Under the pieces are notes generated by a model. The model was given only the letters and a program-made list of their open reading frames with translations, was not told the DNA's origin and did no database searches. 64,000 nucleotides of DNA from the NCBI GenBank assembly GCA_022600195.1, contig JAHZKX010000041.1, positions 62,001 to 126,000 on the forward strand. The letters are read 5' to 3'. This DNA is from Planctomycetota bacterium. Its GTDB lineage: Bacteria > Planctomycetota > Planctomycetia > Planctomycetales > Planctomycetaceae. Both the position numbers and the translations under genes were made by a program. Of the stretch, positions 27,205-43,468 are shown piece by piece (the stretch's first letter is position 1; every line of letters starts with the position of its first letter).

Positions 27205-28383
27205 TCAGGACATGGCAAATTGAGGTTCAGGAACTTCTGCTCCCAATCCTGCAGCATCTCTCAATTCTGCAGCTTTGTCCGTTGCTTCCCAGGTAAAATC
27301 GGGATCGTTGCGACCAAAGTGTCCGCCCCAGGTTGTCTTTCTGAAAATAGGACGACGCAACTGTAAATGATTGATGATTCCCTGTGGATTCAAAGGGAAA
27401 ATCTCTCTGACCAGTTCTGAAATTCGTTCTTCCGGAATAACGGCCGAACCCTTGGTATCAACATAAATACTGGTTGGTTCCGCAACTCCGATAGCATAAG
27501 AAAGCTGTACTTCGCATTCGGTTGCCAGACCAGCGGCTACAATATTTTTAGCAATATAACGTGCCATATACGCTGCAGAGCGGTCTACCTTGGTTGAATC
27601 TTTTCCGCTGAATGCCCCACCACCATGACGACCCCATCCACCATAGGTATCGACGATGATTTTTCGTCCTGTCAAACCAGTATCTCCGTGTGGGCCACCA
27701 ATCACAAATCGACCCGTTGGATTGATATGATACTTCGTTTTATCGCTAAGAAAGTTTGCTGGAACAATTTCTTTAATGACATTTTCAATGATGAAACTTC
27801 GGATCTCTTCCTGTGTCACATCATCTGTATGCTGTGTAGAAACCACAACAGCAGAAACTCCGACTGGCTTGCCATCTTCATAATCGACAGTCACCTGACT
27901 TTTGCTGTCGGGCAACAACCAGTTCACTTCACCATTCTGACGAATTTCTGTCAGTTTATTTAAAATCCGATGGGAAAGGGCAATCGGAACCGGCATGTAT
28001 TCTTCTGTCTGATTGCAGGCATAACCAAACATCAACCCCTGGTCTCCCGCACCTTCTGCATCAACGCCTTGTGCAATATCTGCACTCTGTTGATGCAGCT
28101 TCACCAGAACTTCACAGGTATCTGCGTTAAAACCGATATCTTTGCTGGTGTAGCCTATATCTCGTATCACATCACGAGCAATTTTCTCGTAATCCACCTT
28201 GGTATTACTGGTAATTTCTCCTGAAAGAACAACAAAGTCTGTTGTACACAATGTTTCACAAGCCACGCGTGAATAGGGATCGCCAGCAAGCAAGGCATCC
28301 AGAATTCCATCCGAAACCTGATCAGACACTTTGTCTGGGTGCCCCATACTGACCGATTCACTTGTGAACGAGAATTTAGTCAT
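27205..28383 (-). CDS. metK: S-adenosylmethionine synthetase
   Basis: Makes S-adenosylmethionine from methionine and ATP. The 392-residue protein opens with [20 protein letters not shown], holding the ATP-binding His. It continues through [36 protein letters not shown] and the P-loop-like [18 protein letters not shown]. All standard motifs and the normal length are present. It lies between waaA and a membrane protein on the same strand. The 270 bases upstream were checked for SAM-riboswitch features and none could be recognised by eye. Confidence 0.98.
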
Positions 28384-35359: not shown

Positions 35360-35962
35360 ATGAACCAAACGCGAACTGGCTACGACTATAGTAACAGTTC
35401 CATGACACATTCACCCAATGAAATTTTTGACGAACTTCTGGTTCTAAAGTGCCAGGACGGCGACGAAACAGCATTCAAAACTCTGGTTTCTCGTTGGCAC
35501 AGCCGATTACGGCGCCATGCCTGGTATTTGACCCAGGACTGGGAAGCCGCAGGAGACATCGTTCAAGATGTCTGGTTGGATATCGTTCGTAGTATCCGTC
35601 GGCTCAAAGACCCAGCATCGTTTCGCAGCTGGTCGTACCGCATTGTCAGGAACAAGGCCAACGATTGGCTACGGAGTAAGCAGCGTCAAAGAACACTCTG
35701 GAAAGAAATGGCAAGTCAGAAACAGAATGACGACAAACTTACACCCCAGAAAGAAAACACAGTTCATACACAATCGGTAATTCAGCAAGGCATCAAAGCC
35801 TTATCTACAAGCAGCCAACAGATTCTTTCGATGAAATACATGGATCACATGTCAACGCAAGATATCTCACAAGCATTAGGAATTCCCGAAGGAACCGTAA
35901 AGTCGCGGCTACATCACGCGCGGGAGCAACTAAAGCAAGTCATACAAAGGAACGAGTCATGA
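35360..35962 (+). CDS. ECF-type RNA polymerase sigma factor
   Basis: Sigma-70 family regulator of the ECF type. Region 2 covers about residues 33-105 (DETAFKTLVSRWHSRLRRHA, then DIVQDVWLDIVRSIRRL and SFRSWSYRIVRNKANDWLR). Region 4 has LSTSSQQILSMKYMDHMSTQ, then ISQALGIPEGTVKSRLHHAR, a clear helix-turn-helix. No region 3 is present. The start is uncertain: an ATG at 35402 (MTHSPNEIF) is more natural for the fold, and neither has a strong ribosome site. The stop overlaps the next gene by four bases (ATGA), the usual layout of a sigma factor with its regulator. Confidence 0.9.
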   Translation: MNQTRTGYDYSNSSMTHSPNEIFDELLVLKCQDGDETAFKTLVSRWHSRLRRHAWYLTQDWEAAGDIVQDVWLDIVRSIRRLKDPASFRSWSYRIVRNKANDWLRSKQRQRTLWKEMASQKQNDDKLTPQKENTVHTQSVIQQGIKALSTSSQQILSMKYMDHMSTQDISQALGIPEGTVKSRLHHAREQLKQVIQRNES

Positions 35963-36360
35963 AAGAAATTGAAGAACAGATCCGAGAGGCGCTCCAGGCA
36001 GAACAGAATGAATTGAACGATGGATATCACTTGGACAATGCAGGCATCTTGAAAATGTTTCAAGGTCACTCAAAGTGGATCACGATAGTTTGGTTTGCAC
36101 TGATGGCGGTGACAGTCACTGTGATGATCGTATCTGCGGTCCAGTTCTTTCGCGTTGAGAGCATCCGCGCCATGATTGCATGGGCCACTGGTTTTACCGT
36201 CTGCTTTGTCCTGGAAGCATTCATTGAGTTTTGTTTTTTAGCAGAATGCCGCAAGAACGCCCTTCAATGTCAAATAAAACGACTGGAGTTACAAGTCGCA
36301 ACATTAGCCAGCGGATTGCAGAAAGAGACAGATCAAACAGGATATATGGGCCAGGAATAG
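35959..36360 (+). CDS. Small membrane protein coupled to the ECF sigma factor (possible anti-sigma)
   Basis: A 133-residue protein overlapping the sigma gene by ATGA. The first 40 residues are polar and acidic (MKEIEEQIREALQAEQNELN), followed by two membrane helices at about 43-65 and 70-92 and a basic, helical C-terminus. The layout suits a membrane anti-sigma factor, although no zinc-binding ZAS motif is seen. It resembles small planctomycete proteins found behind ECF sigma genes (I believe the DUF6768 type, unverified). The role is inferred mainly from position. Confidence 0.65.
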   Translation: MKEIEEQIREALQAEQNELNDGYHLDNAGILKMFQGHSKWITIVWFALMAVTVTVMIVSAVQFFRVESIRAMIAWATGFTVCFVLEAFIEFCFLAECRKNALQCQIKRLELQVATLASGLQKETDQTGYMGQE

Positions 36361-36384: not shown

Positions 36385-39300
36385 TCACTCCGCAGCCGTC
36401 AACGTTTCCAAAGCAAACCACGATTTATTCAGATAGCTGCAACTGCAGGCCGCCGAAGCATCGGGAACCAGCACAAGACCGCCGGCGGGAATCGCGTTGA
36501 TCCAGCAACCGGGACGCACGCCGCCGTAATTTTCGATTTTGCTGTTTTTATTGAAATCGAAATATCCGAGCGTGGCGGACCGGAAAAACATCATGTTTTC
36601 ACAACTTGCCATAATACCGCAGCCATACGAACGTTTGAAATTGAACGGCTTCGGCTTTCCCGAAAGCAAATCCCAGGCGCCACCCTGTGCATAAACGGTC
36701 TTTCCATTAATCAAGGGGCGAGAACTGTAATTTGCTTTGGCCTCCCACGTCTTTTTTCCGGTTTTGCTGTCAAAGACGCTAAGCCTGCCTCCTGTTTCTG
36801 AAGACAGCCTGAAACTTGTCGGCTGATAACTCATCAGCAATGCATCATTTTGGGGACTGACCGCCAGCATCGTACCATAGATATCCTCTTTGTTTTTCCA
36901 GATCACATAACCATCCGAAATACTCAAACACAACAACTCACCCGTGGGTTGCTTCCACGATTTGGGACGCGGTTTCCGTCTCTCCAATTTCGTTCGATCA
37001 AAATCTGCCAGCGGACGATCAATCAGATAAATTTTATCATCGGCAATCGCAATCGCATTGTGACGAAAGGAATCCTTCGATTCGTGTTGCCATTTCAGTT
37101 TTCCCGTTTTGACATCAAAGGTAAACAGCCTGTTCGACTCAGTCAGCTGCTTGCTCATATCGCCCGTCGTGTGGTGATAACGGAAGGCGACCACATGCTT
37201 TGGGTCTGCTGCAGTTCCAATGAGCGCCCCGTCGTGAAAGGCGATATAACCCCAGGGCTGCACTTCTTTTTTCGCGGAATCATCTTTAGACGGCGGAACG
37301 ACAAACGTCTTCATCAGCTTTCCAGTGGCGGCGTCCAACTGAAAACATTTCTGTTCGTGACGAATAAACACCGAATCGCCTCCCAGACAATAATTACTGC
37401 CCGTTCCGGAAGCGCCCATCAGTTCATCGCCATCATAGGCTTTGAGCACACCCTTGATCTGAAACCGCCACAGTTCATGACCATTGAATGCATCCACGGC
37501 GATCAGGCCATCATTCCCTTCATGAAACAATCGTCCGTTCGAAAACAAGGGTGCCGGACCGCGACCATGCCGCGAGGGAATCACAAAATCAAAATCACGA
37601 TACCATAACATGCCTAATCGACCGTTAACCAGTTTATCATCACTACACAACGAATTCGCCGCGTCTGCATATTGATGCGTCCATTCTCCAGCTCCTTTAA
37701 TCACTCCCCGCCGGTCCGTTTTTAATGCACCCGGTTTGCCATAGCAGATGACACCGCCATAGGGACGCTGTAACCGCCTCGCTTCGTCTAATGCAAGCGA
37801 TTCCGCGCCAGCGTCAATGGATCGACGGGAGACAATCAGGTTGGCCACTTTATTAGGGCAGTTCGTTTGATCGAGCGGACGATGTAATACCGTCACCCGC
37901 GTCCCATACACGCCCGCTGCAGTCAGGTTCTTGCGTGCCAGAGCAACCAGCTCTGGATCCGACTCAATCGCCACCACCCGCAGTTTCGAGCGACTCACTA
38001 ATTCATACGTCAGAGCCCCATCACCACAACCGATGTCAAAACAGTAACCTTTGTCAAATTTTGACTCTTTCAGAATTTCCGCTGCCGCTTTCGCTACAGT
38101 GGAATCACCGGGAAACGGTGACTTCATTACCGGTCTCTCTTCTAAACCAGCGGGTAATGCAGAATTAGCGCCGTACGAGTAAATATTTCCCCGATCCGTG
38201 CTGACTACCAGATGACCATCGCTCACCGCCAAACCGTAAGCCACACCTTCCACGACTGAAGAAGAGACGTTGGCACCTGCTTTCAAATCAAAAACATCTA
38301 CAAATCCTGCAGAACCAGAAACGATTTTATCCCCCGCAATGACCAGGCTTTCGCTGGGATGTGGTAATTTTACTGTCCAGATTTTTTTGAGTCCTTTCGT
38401 GCGGACCAGCTTACCTTTACGATCAGGGTTTTCCGTTTCAATCCATTGATAACGGGACACCGTTCGCCCCCCCGCGACAACCAGACCATCCTGCGTTGCA
38501 GCGATTTGACCACCCTCGGATTTCCCGATGGCCTGCCCGTCCGAAGATTGAAAAATCACGCCGCTGTTCAGAAACAGATCGTTGACAACAACAGTATCGC
38601 CCCCACCCTCTTTCCTGTTTTTTTGCAGATGAAAGTATTCGAACTTTCCTGAGCGCCGATCCATGGAAGCAGGAACCGCACGACCAGCAGGAACCAGCAG
38701 ATGATTCCCGGCAATTGCCAGATATCCCTGTGCAGAGATGCCACTGTTCGCGTTCGCGCCCCCGTGTGGTTGAGGCATGTAAATCTGGCCGGAATCTTTG
38801 TTCGACCAGACCTGCTCTCCCGATTTGGCCTTGAGCGCATAGAGAAAAATACCATCACTGGGCCAGATCCCCGCGGCATAGTACACCATGTCACCTGAAA
38901 CAACCGGCGCACCACGGGCAGGCCATTTGGAAATCACACGCTCGTTCCCCACCACCATTTTGTCACTCGGTCCGCCTCGATGTTTCCATAATAGTTCTCC
39001 CTCATCCACACGCAGCGCATAAAGATGACCATCATCACTGGCAACCAGTAATTGATCACGCCAGACCACCGGGGCAAACCGTACAGGGCCTTCCGTATAA
39101 AATTCCCAGATTGTTTTCCCCGTCTTCAAATCCAGCGCGTGAACTTTTCCGGTCACACTATCACCAAAGAAAACATGACCATCGGCGATCACACAATGAT
39201 TAGCACGGTCATAGGTCAACCGCGTACTTCGCGGCCAGGCAGGCTCAGGTGTATGTGCAGTCTGAGATTTCCAGTGCAACACAAGTTTCGTCGGCAGCGA

Positions 39301-39447
39301 CTCAGACGTGTATCCACTACGATTCGCATCGGCCCGGTAAGTCGGCCAGTCCGCCGCAAACAGAGAATGACCACTCGAACAAATCCCCACCACAAACAGA
39401 GTGTAGTAGTAGAAACAACGAGAGATTCGATGAAATAATTCGTGCAT
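36385..39447 (-). CDS. Exported PQQ-type beta-propeller protein with embedded methyltransferase domain
   Basis: A 1,020-residue protein with a signal peptide (hydrophobic 12-27, probable cleavage near LFAADWP). Residues about 33-430 and 585-1010 are PQQ/BamB-like propeller repeats, with signatures such as VHALDLKTGKTIWEF, LYALRVDEGELLWKH, LYALKAKSGEQVW, LFTFDVKTGKLKW and LSVFDSKTGKKTWEA. Between them, at about 445-575, lies a class I SAM-methyltransferase-like domain: YCFDIGCGDGALTYEL is motif I, VVAIESDPELVALARKN the acidic loop after strand 2, and NLIVSRRS strand 4. SAM is a cytoplasmic cofactor, so a methyltransferase in an exported protein is odd. The substrate is unknown. It stands alone on the minus strand. 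Confidence 0.85.
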   Translation of the reverse strand: MHELFHRISRCFYYYTLFVVGICSSGHSLFAADWPTYRADANRSGYTSESLPTKLVLHWKSQTAHTPEPAWPRSTRLTYDRANHCVIADGHVFFGDSVTGKVHALDLKTGKTIWEFYTEGPVRFAPVVWRDQLLVASDDGHLYALRVDEGELLWKHRGGPSDKMVVGNERVISKWPARGAPVVSGDMVYYAAGIWPSDGIFLYALKAKSGEQVWSNKDSGQIYMPQPHGGANANSGISAQGYLAIAGNHLLVPAGRAVPASMDRRSGKFEYFHLQKNRKEGGGDTVVVNDLFLNSGVIFQSSDGQAIGKSEGGQIAATQDGLVVAGGRTVSRYQWIETENPDRKGKLVRTKGLKKIWTVKLPHPSESLVIAGDKIVSGSAGFVDVFDLKAGANVSSSVVEGVAYGLAVSDGHLVVSTDRGNIYSYGANSALPAGLEERPVMKSPFPGDSTVAKAAAEILKESKFDKGYCFDIGCGDGALTYELVSRSKLRVVAIESDPELVALARKNLTAAGVYGTRVTVLHRPLDQTNCPNKVANLIVSRRSIDAGAESLALDEARRLQRPYGGVICYGKPGALKTDRRGVIKGAGEWTHQYADAANSLCSDDKLVNGRLGMLWYRDFDFVIPSRHGRGPAPLFSNGRLFHEGNDGLIAVDAFNGHELWRFQIKGVLKAYDGDELMGASGTGSNYCLGGDSVFIRHEQKCFQLDAATGKLMKTFVVPPSKDDSAKKEVQPWGYIAFHDGALIGTAADPKHVVAFRYHHTTGDMSKQLTESNRLFTFDVKTGKLKWQHESKDSFRHNAIAIADDKIYLIDRPLADFDRTKLERRKPRPKSWKQPTGELLCLSISDGYVIWKNKEDIYGTMLAVSPQNDALLMSYQPTSFRLSSETGGRLSVFDSKTGKKTWEAKANYSSRPLINGKTVYAQGGAWDLLSGKPKPFNFKRSYGCGIMASCENMMFFRSATLGYFDFNKNSKIENYGGVRPGCWINAIPAGGLVLVPDASAACSCSYLNKSWFALETLTAAE

Positions 39448-39611: not shown

Positions 39612-40592
39612 TTACTTACGTTTTTTATCATTTCCCTCTCGTAAATCTTTCACATTCGACCTCGGTGGTACTTCGATATTCTGAAAGAAATCCAACGAAT
39701 AACGGGGAGCGAGTGAAACATCAGTCAGTTTGATCTTCGTAATATTACCCACTACAGTTTCTCCTTTGCTTGCTGCCGTTTCAAAATTCACAACATTTTT
39801 CACTTGAAACGGAAACCAGACGTCAGGCGCCAATTCTTTCCAGTCTGTAACATTCACAATCTCCAAAGGAATCGACTCACTATACCCAATCGCATACCCC
39901 ACACCGCGCACCGGTATGTAGTTTCTCTCGGGGGCGAGCCACATCAACCAATAATCTCGTGTTTTCTGACCCTTCACCCAGCTTTCCACTCGAATACGAT
40001 GGCAATCCAATTCTTGTACAACTTCTTCTCCTTCATAAATCACGTTTAAGAAGTATCCACCAGATTTCCCACACGACAAATACTCCGCAAGCGATTTTCC
40101 TCGAGCGTGCTTACCAAGAATAAACATGTGCGGTCGATACATACGAGGTAGCGGTTCTTTTCTCGGAATCAGTCTGACATCAGAGTTTTCCACCTGCCTC
40201 GATAAAGTCCCATCATAAGTCGACCTGATACGAAAAACGCTCTTCTGACCCGTGAAAGAGAGACCAGACACACTTTCCTGAAAAGAATACAACTCATTTT
40301 GAAAAACATTATGTGAGATTCTCTCTAGTTTCTTAAAAAGATTCTTTCCTTTGGGGCCTTTCGTTATATAGTCGGGCAAGACACACAACATCTCTTTCTT
40401 CTTTCGATACTCCAGGTTTTTATAAAGGACCTCGTTAGCAGAAATCTTCTCTAGCAGCGCCATCAATTGAGTCTCTTCTGCATCTGCCTGATGAGAGACG
40501 CAAGCAATGAAAACGAGAAAGAAACAACATAAACGACTCAGAAATGAAAGGCTGCTTTCATTATAGAATTTTGTCACTAATATCGCCTCCAT
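39612..40592 (-). CDS. Secreted protein of unknown function
   Basis: A 326-residue protein with a late signal sequence (hydrophobic about 15-33, SFLSRLCCFFLVFIACVSHQ, probable cleavage after QADA). The mature part is beta-rich with aromatic residues, including SYSESIPLEIVNVTDW-like and DVWFPFQVKNVVNFET segments. This style resembles LolA/outer-membrane-lipoprotein-type proteins common in planctomycetes, but the family is not certain. The N-terminal 14 residues before the hydrophobic stretch suggest the real start may be further in. It is a single gene between the PQQ protein and the next operon. Confidence 0.7.
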   Translation of the reverse strand: MEAILVTKFYNESSLSFLSRLCCFFLVFIACVSHQADAEETQLMALLEKISANEVLYKNLEYRKKKEMLCVLPDYITKGPKGKNLFKKLERISHNVFQNELYSFQESVSGLSFTGQKSVFRIRSTYDGTLSRQVENSDVRLIPRKEPLPRMYRPHMFILGKHARGKSLAEYLSCGKSGGYFLNVIYEGEEVVQELDCHRIRVESWVKGQKTRDYWLMWLAPERNYIPVRGVGYAIGYSESIPLEIVNVTDWKELAPDVWFPFQVKNVVNFETAASKGETVVGNITKIKLTDVSLAPRYSLDFFQNIEVPPRSNVKDLREGNDKKRK

Positions 40593-41932: not shown

Positions 41933-43468
41933 ATGAAAAAATTCAATTATAAATCGTTAGTGCTGATTTGCAGTCTGGCGATCACTTTCAGTTATCCCCT
42001 TTATGAGTTATCAGCCCGCGGCGGGCGTGGTGGAGGCGGAGCCCGTGGTGGCGGTTCTCGCGGAGGTGCTTCGCGCGGTGGAGCCTCGCGATCCAGACCA
42101 TCTTCTGGACGCACCCCTTCAATGAGTAGACCATCTTCCAGCAGAAGACCCAGTTCAAGACCGAGCTCAAGACCAAGCTCGCGTCCCAGTAGACCCAGTT
42201 CGAAACCTTCTTCGAGACCCAGCTCTCGACCTAGTCGGCCAAGTTCAAAACCCAGTACTCGCCCCAGTACTCGCCCCAGTACTCGCCCCAATACCCGGCC
42301 CAGTACCCGGCCATCGCAGGGGACAAGGCCGACAAGACCTTCTGGTAATCAAGGACGCCCCTCCCAGCGAGACTTAAACAATTTCCTGGACTTTGGCAAA
42401 AAACCATCAGGCGGGAAACGTCCCGTAATTGGCGGAGGAAGCAGCGCTATTGGTGGTGCTGTGGGTGGAGCTGCTGTCGCTGATTTTCTGAATAATCGTC
42501 CCAGTACGGGACAACGTCCCTCAACGCGTCCGGGTACACCTTCTACACGACCTACCCCAGGAGACCGTCCCGGTGGAGGAGATCGCCCAAATCGGCCCGG
42601 TGACGGGAATGGCGACCGACCAAATCGACCCGGTGGCGGCAATGGCGACCGACCAAATCGACCCGGTGATGGCAATGGCGACCGGCCAAATCGACCCGGC
42701 GATGGCAATCGGCCTAACCGCCCCGGAGACGGAGACGGTAATAGACCCAATCGCCCAAACCGTCCTGGTGACGGAAATGGTAACAGACCCACGCGACCAC
42801 CAAATCGTCCTGGTAATGGGAATCGACCGAATAGACCCAATCGCCCACGTCCTCCTCGCCCTCCACATTGGGACTTCCATAAGCATCATCCAAACTACGC
42901 ACGTTGGAACTGGAACCGCCCTTACCGATGGGCTACCTGGGCAGGCTTAGCCGCCTTCTTCCCCTGGAGTACCGGCGGATCTGAAATCTACTACAACTAT
43001 GGTGATAATATTTATTATGAAGGTGACGAGGTTTATCAAAATGGCGAACCCATTGCCACAACGGAAGAGTACGCCGAACAGGCTCAAGAGTTGGCAACGA
43101 GTGCACCAGAACCCACCGATGATACTGAATGGATGACACTTGGCGTCTTTGCTGCTACTGCAAAAGATAGTGATTCAGGTGCCGACCCGGCATTCTATCT
43201 GCAGTTGGCTGTCAGCAAGGACGGTATCATCGGCGGTACAGTTCACATGAGTGAAACCGATAAAACTTCGACGATCGAAGGAATGGTCGATCATAAATCG
43301 CAAAGAGCGGCCTGGGCCATGACAGGCAAAAGTTCGCCTATCATGGAGACGGGGATTGCGAATCTTACCAAAGATGATGCAACCGCCTTGTTGCACTTTG
43401 AAGATGGTACTACGCAACAATGGAATCTCATTCGTCTGGAAGAACCTGAGGAAGATAAGAAAAAATAA
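41933..43468 (+). CDS. Low-complexity Arg/Pro/Ser/Gly-rich surface protein (mu-protocadherin-like)
   Basis: A 511-residue exported protein: signal peptide (1-28), Gly/Arg segment (29-53), Ser-Arg-Pro repeats (65-128), a Gly/Ala hydrophobic patch (166-186) and an Asn-Arg-Pro-Gly repeat block (217-305). Next comes an aromatic stretch HWDFHKHHPNYARWNWN with YNYGDNIYYEGDEVYQNG. The last 120 residues (from TEWMTLGVFAA) form a globular domain. This layout, notably the YYEGDEVY segment followed by ATTEEYAEQA, matches planctomycete proteins labelled mu-protocadherin cell-surface protein. The function is unknown; the basic repeats suggest binding to polyanions. A hairpin follows at 43506. Confidence 0.8.
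   Translation: MKKFNYKSLVLICSLAITFSYPLYELSARGGRGGGGARGGGSRGGASRGGASRSRPSSGRTPSMSRPSSSRRPSSRPSSRPSSRPSRPSSKPSSRPSSRPSRPSSKPSTRPSTRPSTRPNTRPSTRPSQGTRPTRPSGNQGRPSQRDLNNFLDFGKKPSGGKRPVIGGGSSAIGGAVGGAAVADFLNNRPSTGQRPSTRPGTPSTRPTPGDRPGGGDRPNRPGDGNGDRPNRPGGGNGDRPNRPGDGNGDRPNRPGDGNRPNRPGDGDGNRPNRPNRPGDGNGNRPTRPPNRPGNGNRPNRPNRPRPPRPPHWDFHKHHPNYARWNWNRPYRWATWAGLAAFFPWSTGGSEIYYNYGDNIYYEGDEVYQNGEPIATTEEYAEQAQELATSAPEPTDDTEWMTLGVFAATAKDSDSGADPAFYLQLAVSKDGIIGGTVHMSETDKTSTIEGMVDHKSQRAAWAMTGKSSPIMETGIANLTKDDATALLHFEDGTTQQWNLIRLEEPEEDKKK
42125..42316 (+). repeat. Ser-Arg-Pro coding repeats
   Basis: Short tandem units coding for SSRP, SRPSSKP and STRP, including two consecutive copies of a 15-residue SSRPSSRPSRPSSKP block and runs of the 12-base unit AGTACTCGCCCC. 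Such repeats tend to change copy number between strains. Confidence 0.8.
42581..42709 (+). repeat. 33-base tandem repeats coding DRPNRPGDGNG
   Basis: Four consecutive units of 33, 33, 33 and 30 bases code for the 11-residue motif DRPNRPGDGNG (Gly replaces Asp once). Looser copies continue to about 42850. The DNA copies differ at synonymous positions, so they are not a very recent expansion. Confidence 0.85.

Follow-up and report, generated by a model that had tools for sequence, protein, structure and literature searches.

Gene and module order

The window, by which we mean the whole analysed stretch of 64,000 nucleotides, encodes on its minus strand (36385..39447) a protein of 1020 amino acids that carries an export leader, two propellers and a methyltransferase-like domain. 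The gene follows from the open reading frame and from the full-length orthologues L059, L030 and L031 with 80-93% identity, L059 being the closest at 93%. The signal peptide (aa 1-32, 39352..39447, minus) ends in LFAA followed by DW; it is assigned from the sequence, the leaders of relatives, a simple leader rule and hydropathy. Propeller 1 (aa 33-430, 38158..39351, minus) is complete, eight-bladed and of the BamB/PQQ_2 type. A methyltransferase-like Rossmann domain comes next (aa 447-580, 37708..38109, minus), recognised by Pfam, a sequence profile, the predicted model and structural matches, and the propeller 2 region (aa 583-1015, 36403..37701, minus) completes the protein.

The earlier note placed a methyltransferase domain at 37723-38115, inside a propeller. 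This segment does correspond to residues 445-575 and does hold FDIGCGDGALTYEL, and the recognition of a SAM-type motif I domain in a leader-bearing protein was correct; the embedding was not. We reject it since propeller 1 is already closed where the domain begins, so that the domain sits between two propellers, and since a paralogue (L029:6924-10004) has the permuted order of leader, methyltransferase-like domain, propeller 2 and propeller 1.

The PQQ_2 family matches the protein at 114 bits (cut-off 27.6), and propeller 1 has the eight-bladed PQQ_2-type architecture of BamB. Propeller 2 is based on a Pfam PQQ stretch at residues 632-791, a phmmer match to 1kv9 starting at residue 583 and the strand pattern of the model; the matches listed in the whole-model fold search concern propeller 1. 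The protein is not BamB itself: TIGR03300 reaches 71 bits, far under the NCBIfam equivalog cut-off of 285.2, and the leader end (SLFAA-DW) lacks the lipobox cysteine, which we take to be the mark of BamB as a lipoprotein. It is not a PQQ-dependent alcohol or methanol dehydrogenase either (TIGR03075, 56.2 bits against a cut-off of 480), and the window protein nowhere contains two adjacent cysteines, a pair that is presumably a feature of the PQQ site in those enzymes. It differs from propellers of the BamB/PQQ_2 and Rv3035 types (9p3g) in having two propeller regions and a Rossmann domain.

Fold and site residues of the domain

Methyltransf_25 matches the window protein at 37.4 bits (cut-off 27). 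A profile of 52 domain sequences (the window and 51 relatives) finds the SAM methyltransferase 3dlc in the PDB with E 1.2e-17 and 3bus with E 6e-11, and the AlphaFold model, structural matches and profile search all point to a methyltransferase core of the Rossmann type. A chance match to motif I can be discarded given the Pfam, profile and structural matches. Motif I itself (DIGCGDG, aa 471-477, 38017..38037, minus) conforms to (D/E)xGxGxG. Calcium loops have alternating acidic residues; by eye DIGCGDG has none in such an arrangement, and we set that reading aside. The end of strand 2 carries an acidic residue, E495 (37963..37965, minus), in what we take to be the ribose-site position of class I methyltransferases. 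Position 524 after strand 3, which we assume to be the adenine-site acidic position, is a proline in the window.

A complete class I methyltransferase sheet includes helix E and strands 6-7. The predicted models contain strands 1-5 and one last strand, and helix E/strand 6 is unseen in them; that last strand, a short one, does align with the C-terminus of 3dlc. Compared with the class I SAM-dependent methyltransferases 3dlc (MMP1179) and 3bus (RebM), the window domain thus differs in its export leader, its setting between two propellers, the unseen helix E and strand 6, and the proline that the genus has at the adenine-site position. SpnF (4pne) and RdmB (1qzz), both among the matches, likewise have, judging by their entry titles, a methyltransferase fold in another use; unlike the window protein, they are presumably stand-alone enzymes with no propellers.

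Conservation and loss of motif I

We aligned 118 rows: the window, 80 loci (the best 80 of 556 stretches encoding a relative) and 37 others from genome searches and from loci of the window's own genome. The closer set comprises 100 sequences, the window included, with at least 43% identity to the window outside the domain; since the best 80 of 556 were used, these are the nearest sequences rather than a random draw, and since the rows include near-copies and some fragments, the counts are of sequences and not of independent events. L022_2308 and the permuted L029_6924 were dropped ahead of this alignment and L022_13839 ahead of another; by eye, L022_2308 and L022_13839 are not members of the family. 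Of the 80 loci, 73 went into A2, and 51 of those into A3.

Within the closer set D471 is found in 95 sequences, C474 in 78, G475 in 89, G477 in 92, D/E495 in 84 and D497 in 91, with G473 in only 63. When motif I is called intact for an acidic residue at 471, G/A/S at 473, G475 and G477, it is so in 72 and not intact in 28. Position 524 is D in 64 of the 100; together with the proline of the genus and the count for G473, this means that even the binding site is imperfect. Distant homologues have G475 in 4 of 18 and G477 in 7 of 18, all three glycines without the acidic residue in 4 of 18, and an acidic residue at 494-497 in 18 of 18. Loss of SAM-binding residues, which the earlier note raised against its own observation, holds only in part: it applies to the distant homologues, all 18 of which lack acidic 471, and to the 28 closer sequences with a non-intact motif, and not to the closer majority with an intact one.

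Every closer sequence has 21-24 residues between the strand 5 GG and the Trp that comes first in propeller 2; the 18 distant ones all have 45-61. According to the alignment and the predicted models, in sequences whose motif is intact the C-terminal part of the domain is missing about 25 residues that the distant ones possess; on the models, the missing part probably corresponds to helix E/strand 6. None of the 118 sequences combines the extra C-terminal part with the acidic residue of motif I, and this is our main reason to doubt catalysis.

A working extracytoplasmic methyltransferase, acting on a periplasmic or surface substrate such as a glycan with SAM transported or released there, is accordingly a reading that we consider quite improbable. 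D471, G475, G477 and acidic 495 are kept over long branches, which is the pattern of a working SAM site and makes catalysis with SAM supplied by some route conceivable; the R-P-x-G-G region is also kept in most closer sequences along with motif I and the strand 2 acidic residue. Against it, helix E/strand 6 is unseen, the domain construct, at 143 residues, falls short of the smallest SAH-bound chains (153-160 residues, 5bxy and 5fad) among the 50 matches listed, the flanks examined contain no conserved neighbour such as a transporter, and SAM is not expected beyond the bacterial cytoplasm. A precedent for such a supply may exist in plants, where SAM is imported into the Golgi for pectin methylation, as the title of a 2007 paper cited in PMC6397879 has it.

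Eight domain residues (G467, R505, G515, R517, A535, P562, G564 and G565) are kept in both sets, in at least 93% of the closer and at least 80% of the distant sequences. None of them belongs to motif I, which suggests that the domain may serve both sets as a scaffold, independently of the SAM site. The domain could then be purely structural, a relic spacer that binds nothing and in which motif I persists in one branch for the folding or packing of its loop; we regard this as possible, though somewhat unlikely. It agrees with the placement of those eight residues and with the 28 non-intact closer sequences, which have a spacer of the same length and can be aligned in the propeller parts covered. 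It also agrees with the tree (FastTree, propeller columns alone; 112 rows, 109 of them different, 68 of the 112 intact), where motif I switches between intact and non-intact at least 16 times, 11 of these forced by well supported branches; having long branches that meet and an arbitrary root, the tree speaks only for repeated change of motif I, and no direction was assigned to the changes. The tree alone omits six fragmentary or frame-broken loci (L062, L105, L113, L116, L121 and L124). Yet the retention of D471 (95), G477 (92), G475 (89) and D/E495 (84 of 100) tells against a mere relic: an acidic pair together with a glycine loop is not obviously needed by a spacer.

Within the genus, purifying selection acts on the domain: dN/dS is 0.13 in the comparison with L059 and 0.07 in those with L030 and L031 (where dS, at 1.6-2.1, is near saturation), similar to propeller 1, and that of the leader is higher at 0.35-0.55. 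A counter-indication is the pair L030-L031, for which the domain has 0.26, higher than both propellers.

As a separate observation, four cysteines of propeller 2 (C943, C981, C1001 and C1003; 36439-36621, minus) are nearly invariant where covered, being present in 93-95 of the 100 closer rows and in 13-14 of the 18 distant ones; nearly all of the remaining closer rows, and all of the remaining distant ones, have gaps there. They may form a metal site or two disulfides.

Distribution and related architectures

At E<=1e-5 the domain profile finds ten copies in the window's own genome, all ten within double-propeller ORFs, and no stand-alone copy. Only the window copy has the full D/E-x-G-x-G-x-G; a second copy, in L022, shows GxGxG but not the acidic residue.

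Of 101 genomes from the same family, 19 (counting that of the window itself) have close relatives at E below 1e-200, and 15 of 245 genomes drawn from the phylum have matches at E<=1e-100, a patchy distribution. The 80 loci, the best of 556, include metagenome-assembled genomes of Planctomycetota, Verrucomicrobiota, Kiritimatiellia and Omnitrophota; a few are titled Nitrospiraceae, Nealsonbacteria or Emcibacter and may be mis-binned. Among viral contigs, 22 stretches fitted a pattern and none encodes a relative.

Some relatives carry further domains: CHB_HEX_C_1 and 3keto-disac_hyd at the C-terminus of L034:1426-5331, and Malectin in the C-terminal extra part of L022:7379-11122 and L025:6517-10860. 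These glycan-type domains hint at a possible contact with glycans, which would favour a working enzyme with such a substrate.

Export and location

The leaders of the relatives compared are hydrophobic and mostly end ahead of a conserved DW or W motif. The simple rule accepts a leader in 110 of the 115 family members with a complete N-terminus, a figure that is favoured by the start codons of most members having been chosen by script 15-45 residues ahead of the mature motif; the same rule passes 10 of the 33 other ORFs of the window, several of which look exported by eye. After residue 35 the window protein has no clear membrane segment (best 19-residue hydropathy 1.34), and the leader itself, being short, reaches just 1.18 by this measure. 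As regards Tat export, a twin arginine is absent from the leader of the window protein, and 7 of the 70 intact members have RR among their first 30 residues.

That the domain lies on the cytoplasmic side, or that the protein is retained in the cytoplasm with ordinary SAM available, we hold to be very improbable. Apart from the presence of motif I we found nothing in its favour, and it conflicts with the leaders of those 110 members, with the absence of a clear second transmembrane segment and with the listing of BamB, a Gram-negative envelope protein, among the related propellers. A periplasmic location is the one we infer.

That a protein with an export leader should carry a SAM-type motif is a real puzzle, the leaders being conserved and the motif being intact in most of the closer set. 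The earlier note also allowed for an unusual compartment and pointed to the invaginated membranes of planctomycetes; this option is weak, as Boedeker et al. 2017 (PMC5394234) support for planctomycetes a Gram-negative plan with an enlarged periplasm. On that plan an exported domain would simply be periplasmic, and invaginated membranes alone would bring it no SAM.

Interpretation

Of the options in the earlier note, a structural domain or one with a different ligand agrees best with the data, since the intact-motif sequences lack the C-terminal residues that the distant ones possess; the earlier interpretation is in this sense supported in part. We propose an exported protein in which a former methyltransferase domain, no longer a working enzyme, bridges the propellers and keeps a nucleoside-type pocket in this branch, and put its chances at about even. 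What the computations show is the fold, the motif, the leader, the module order, the pattern of conservation and loss, and purifying selection; from these we infer the location, ligand binding, lack of catalysis, bridging and the name given to the missing part. Sec would export the protein into the planctomycete periplasm. A domain descended from class I SAM-dependent methyltransferases may have been captured between two exported propellers and have stayed as their bridge in the descendants seen. It would have lost catalytic completeness with the helix E/strand 6 part in the subfamily, and one branch would keep the motif I loop and the acidic residue after strand 2 as a pocket, which probably holds SAM/SAH or another ribose-bearing ligand in a structural or sensing role.

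The wider proposal, that Planctomycetota, Verrucomicrobiota and their neighbours share a widespread Sec-exported family whose conserved SAM-type site is used in envelope methylation or sensing, is tentative and in our opinion unlikely. If true, it would mean that SAM, SAH or a related nucleoside is present beyond the cytoplasm of these bacteria. Should the pocket bind SAM/SAH, it would be an exception to cytoplasm-only bacterial SAM chemistry that can be tested on one protein; should it not, the family would be a clear case of a methyltransferase fold that has become a building part of exported proteins, with one intact and nine decayed copies together in a single genome. For such proteins an annotation as methyltransferase or as BamB would be misleading.

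The propellers and the methyltransferase domain are each of known kinds, and their combination is a variant that we did not find described in titles and the beginnings of abstracts, a scope that leaves most subscription journals outside. PMC10215855 is unrelated to it. The accessible part of a study of the planctomycete Tuwongella immobilis (PMC8567305) reports 28 BamB-type paralogues of 43-193 kDa and names five of them in different cell fractions; unlike for the window protein, that part mentions no methyltransferase domain.

Gene neighbourhood

An operon clue to function was sought and rejected, there being no conserved neighbour gene in the flanks of the 80 relatives, many of which are cut short where the contig stops; the most frequent cluster of neighbours, identified by eye as a sulfatase-like protein, occurs at just 11 loci. 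Twelve window neighbours gave no match in two same-genus stretches of 19.5 kb, and the 11.4-kb L059 contig has matches for 6 of the 12, two of them short pieces.

Adjoining the gene, 39612-40592 (minus) encodes a leader-bearing protein of 326 aa with no Pfam match above cut-off; it has no match in L059, where the flanking genes are only 458 bases apart. A gene that by eye looks like metK (SAM synthetase) lies at 27205-28383 (minus), on the strand of the propeller gene and about 8 kb from it; between the two stand genes that, again by eye, resemble secA and waaA, with no sign of linkage. At 35360-36360 (plus) an ECF-type sigma factor overlaps a DUF6768 protein by 4 bases, and the two are perhaps a regulator pair. 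The protein encoded at 41933-43468 (plus) has a leader and contains long repeats of Arg/Pro/Ser and of Gly/Asn/Arg/Pro.
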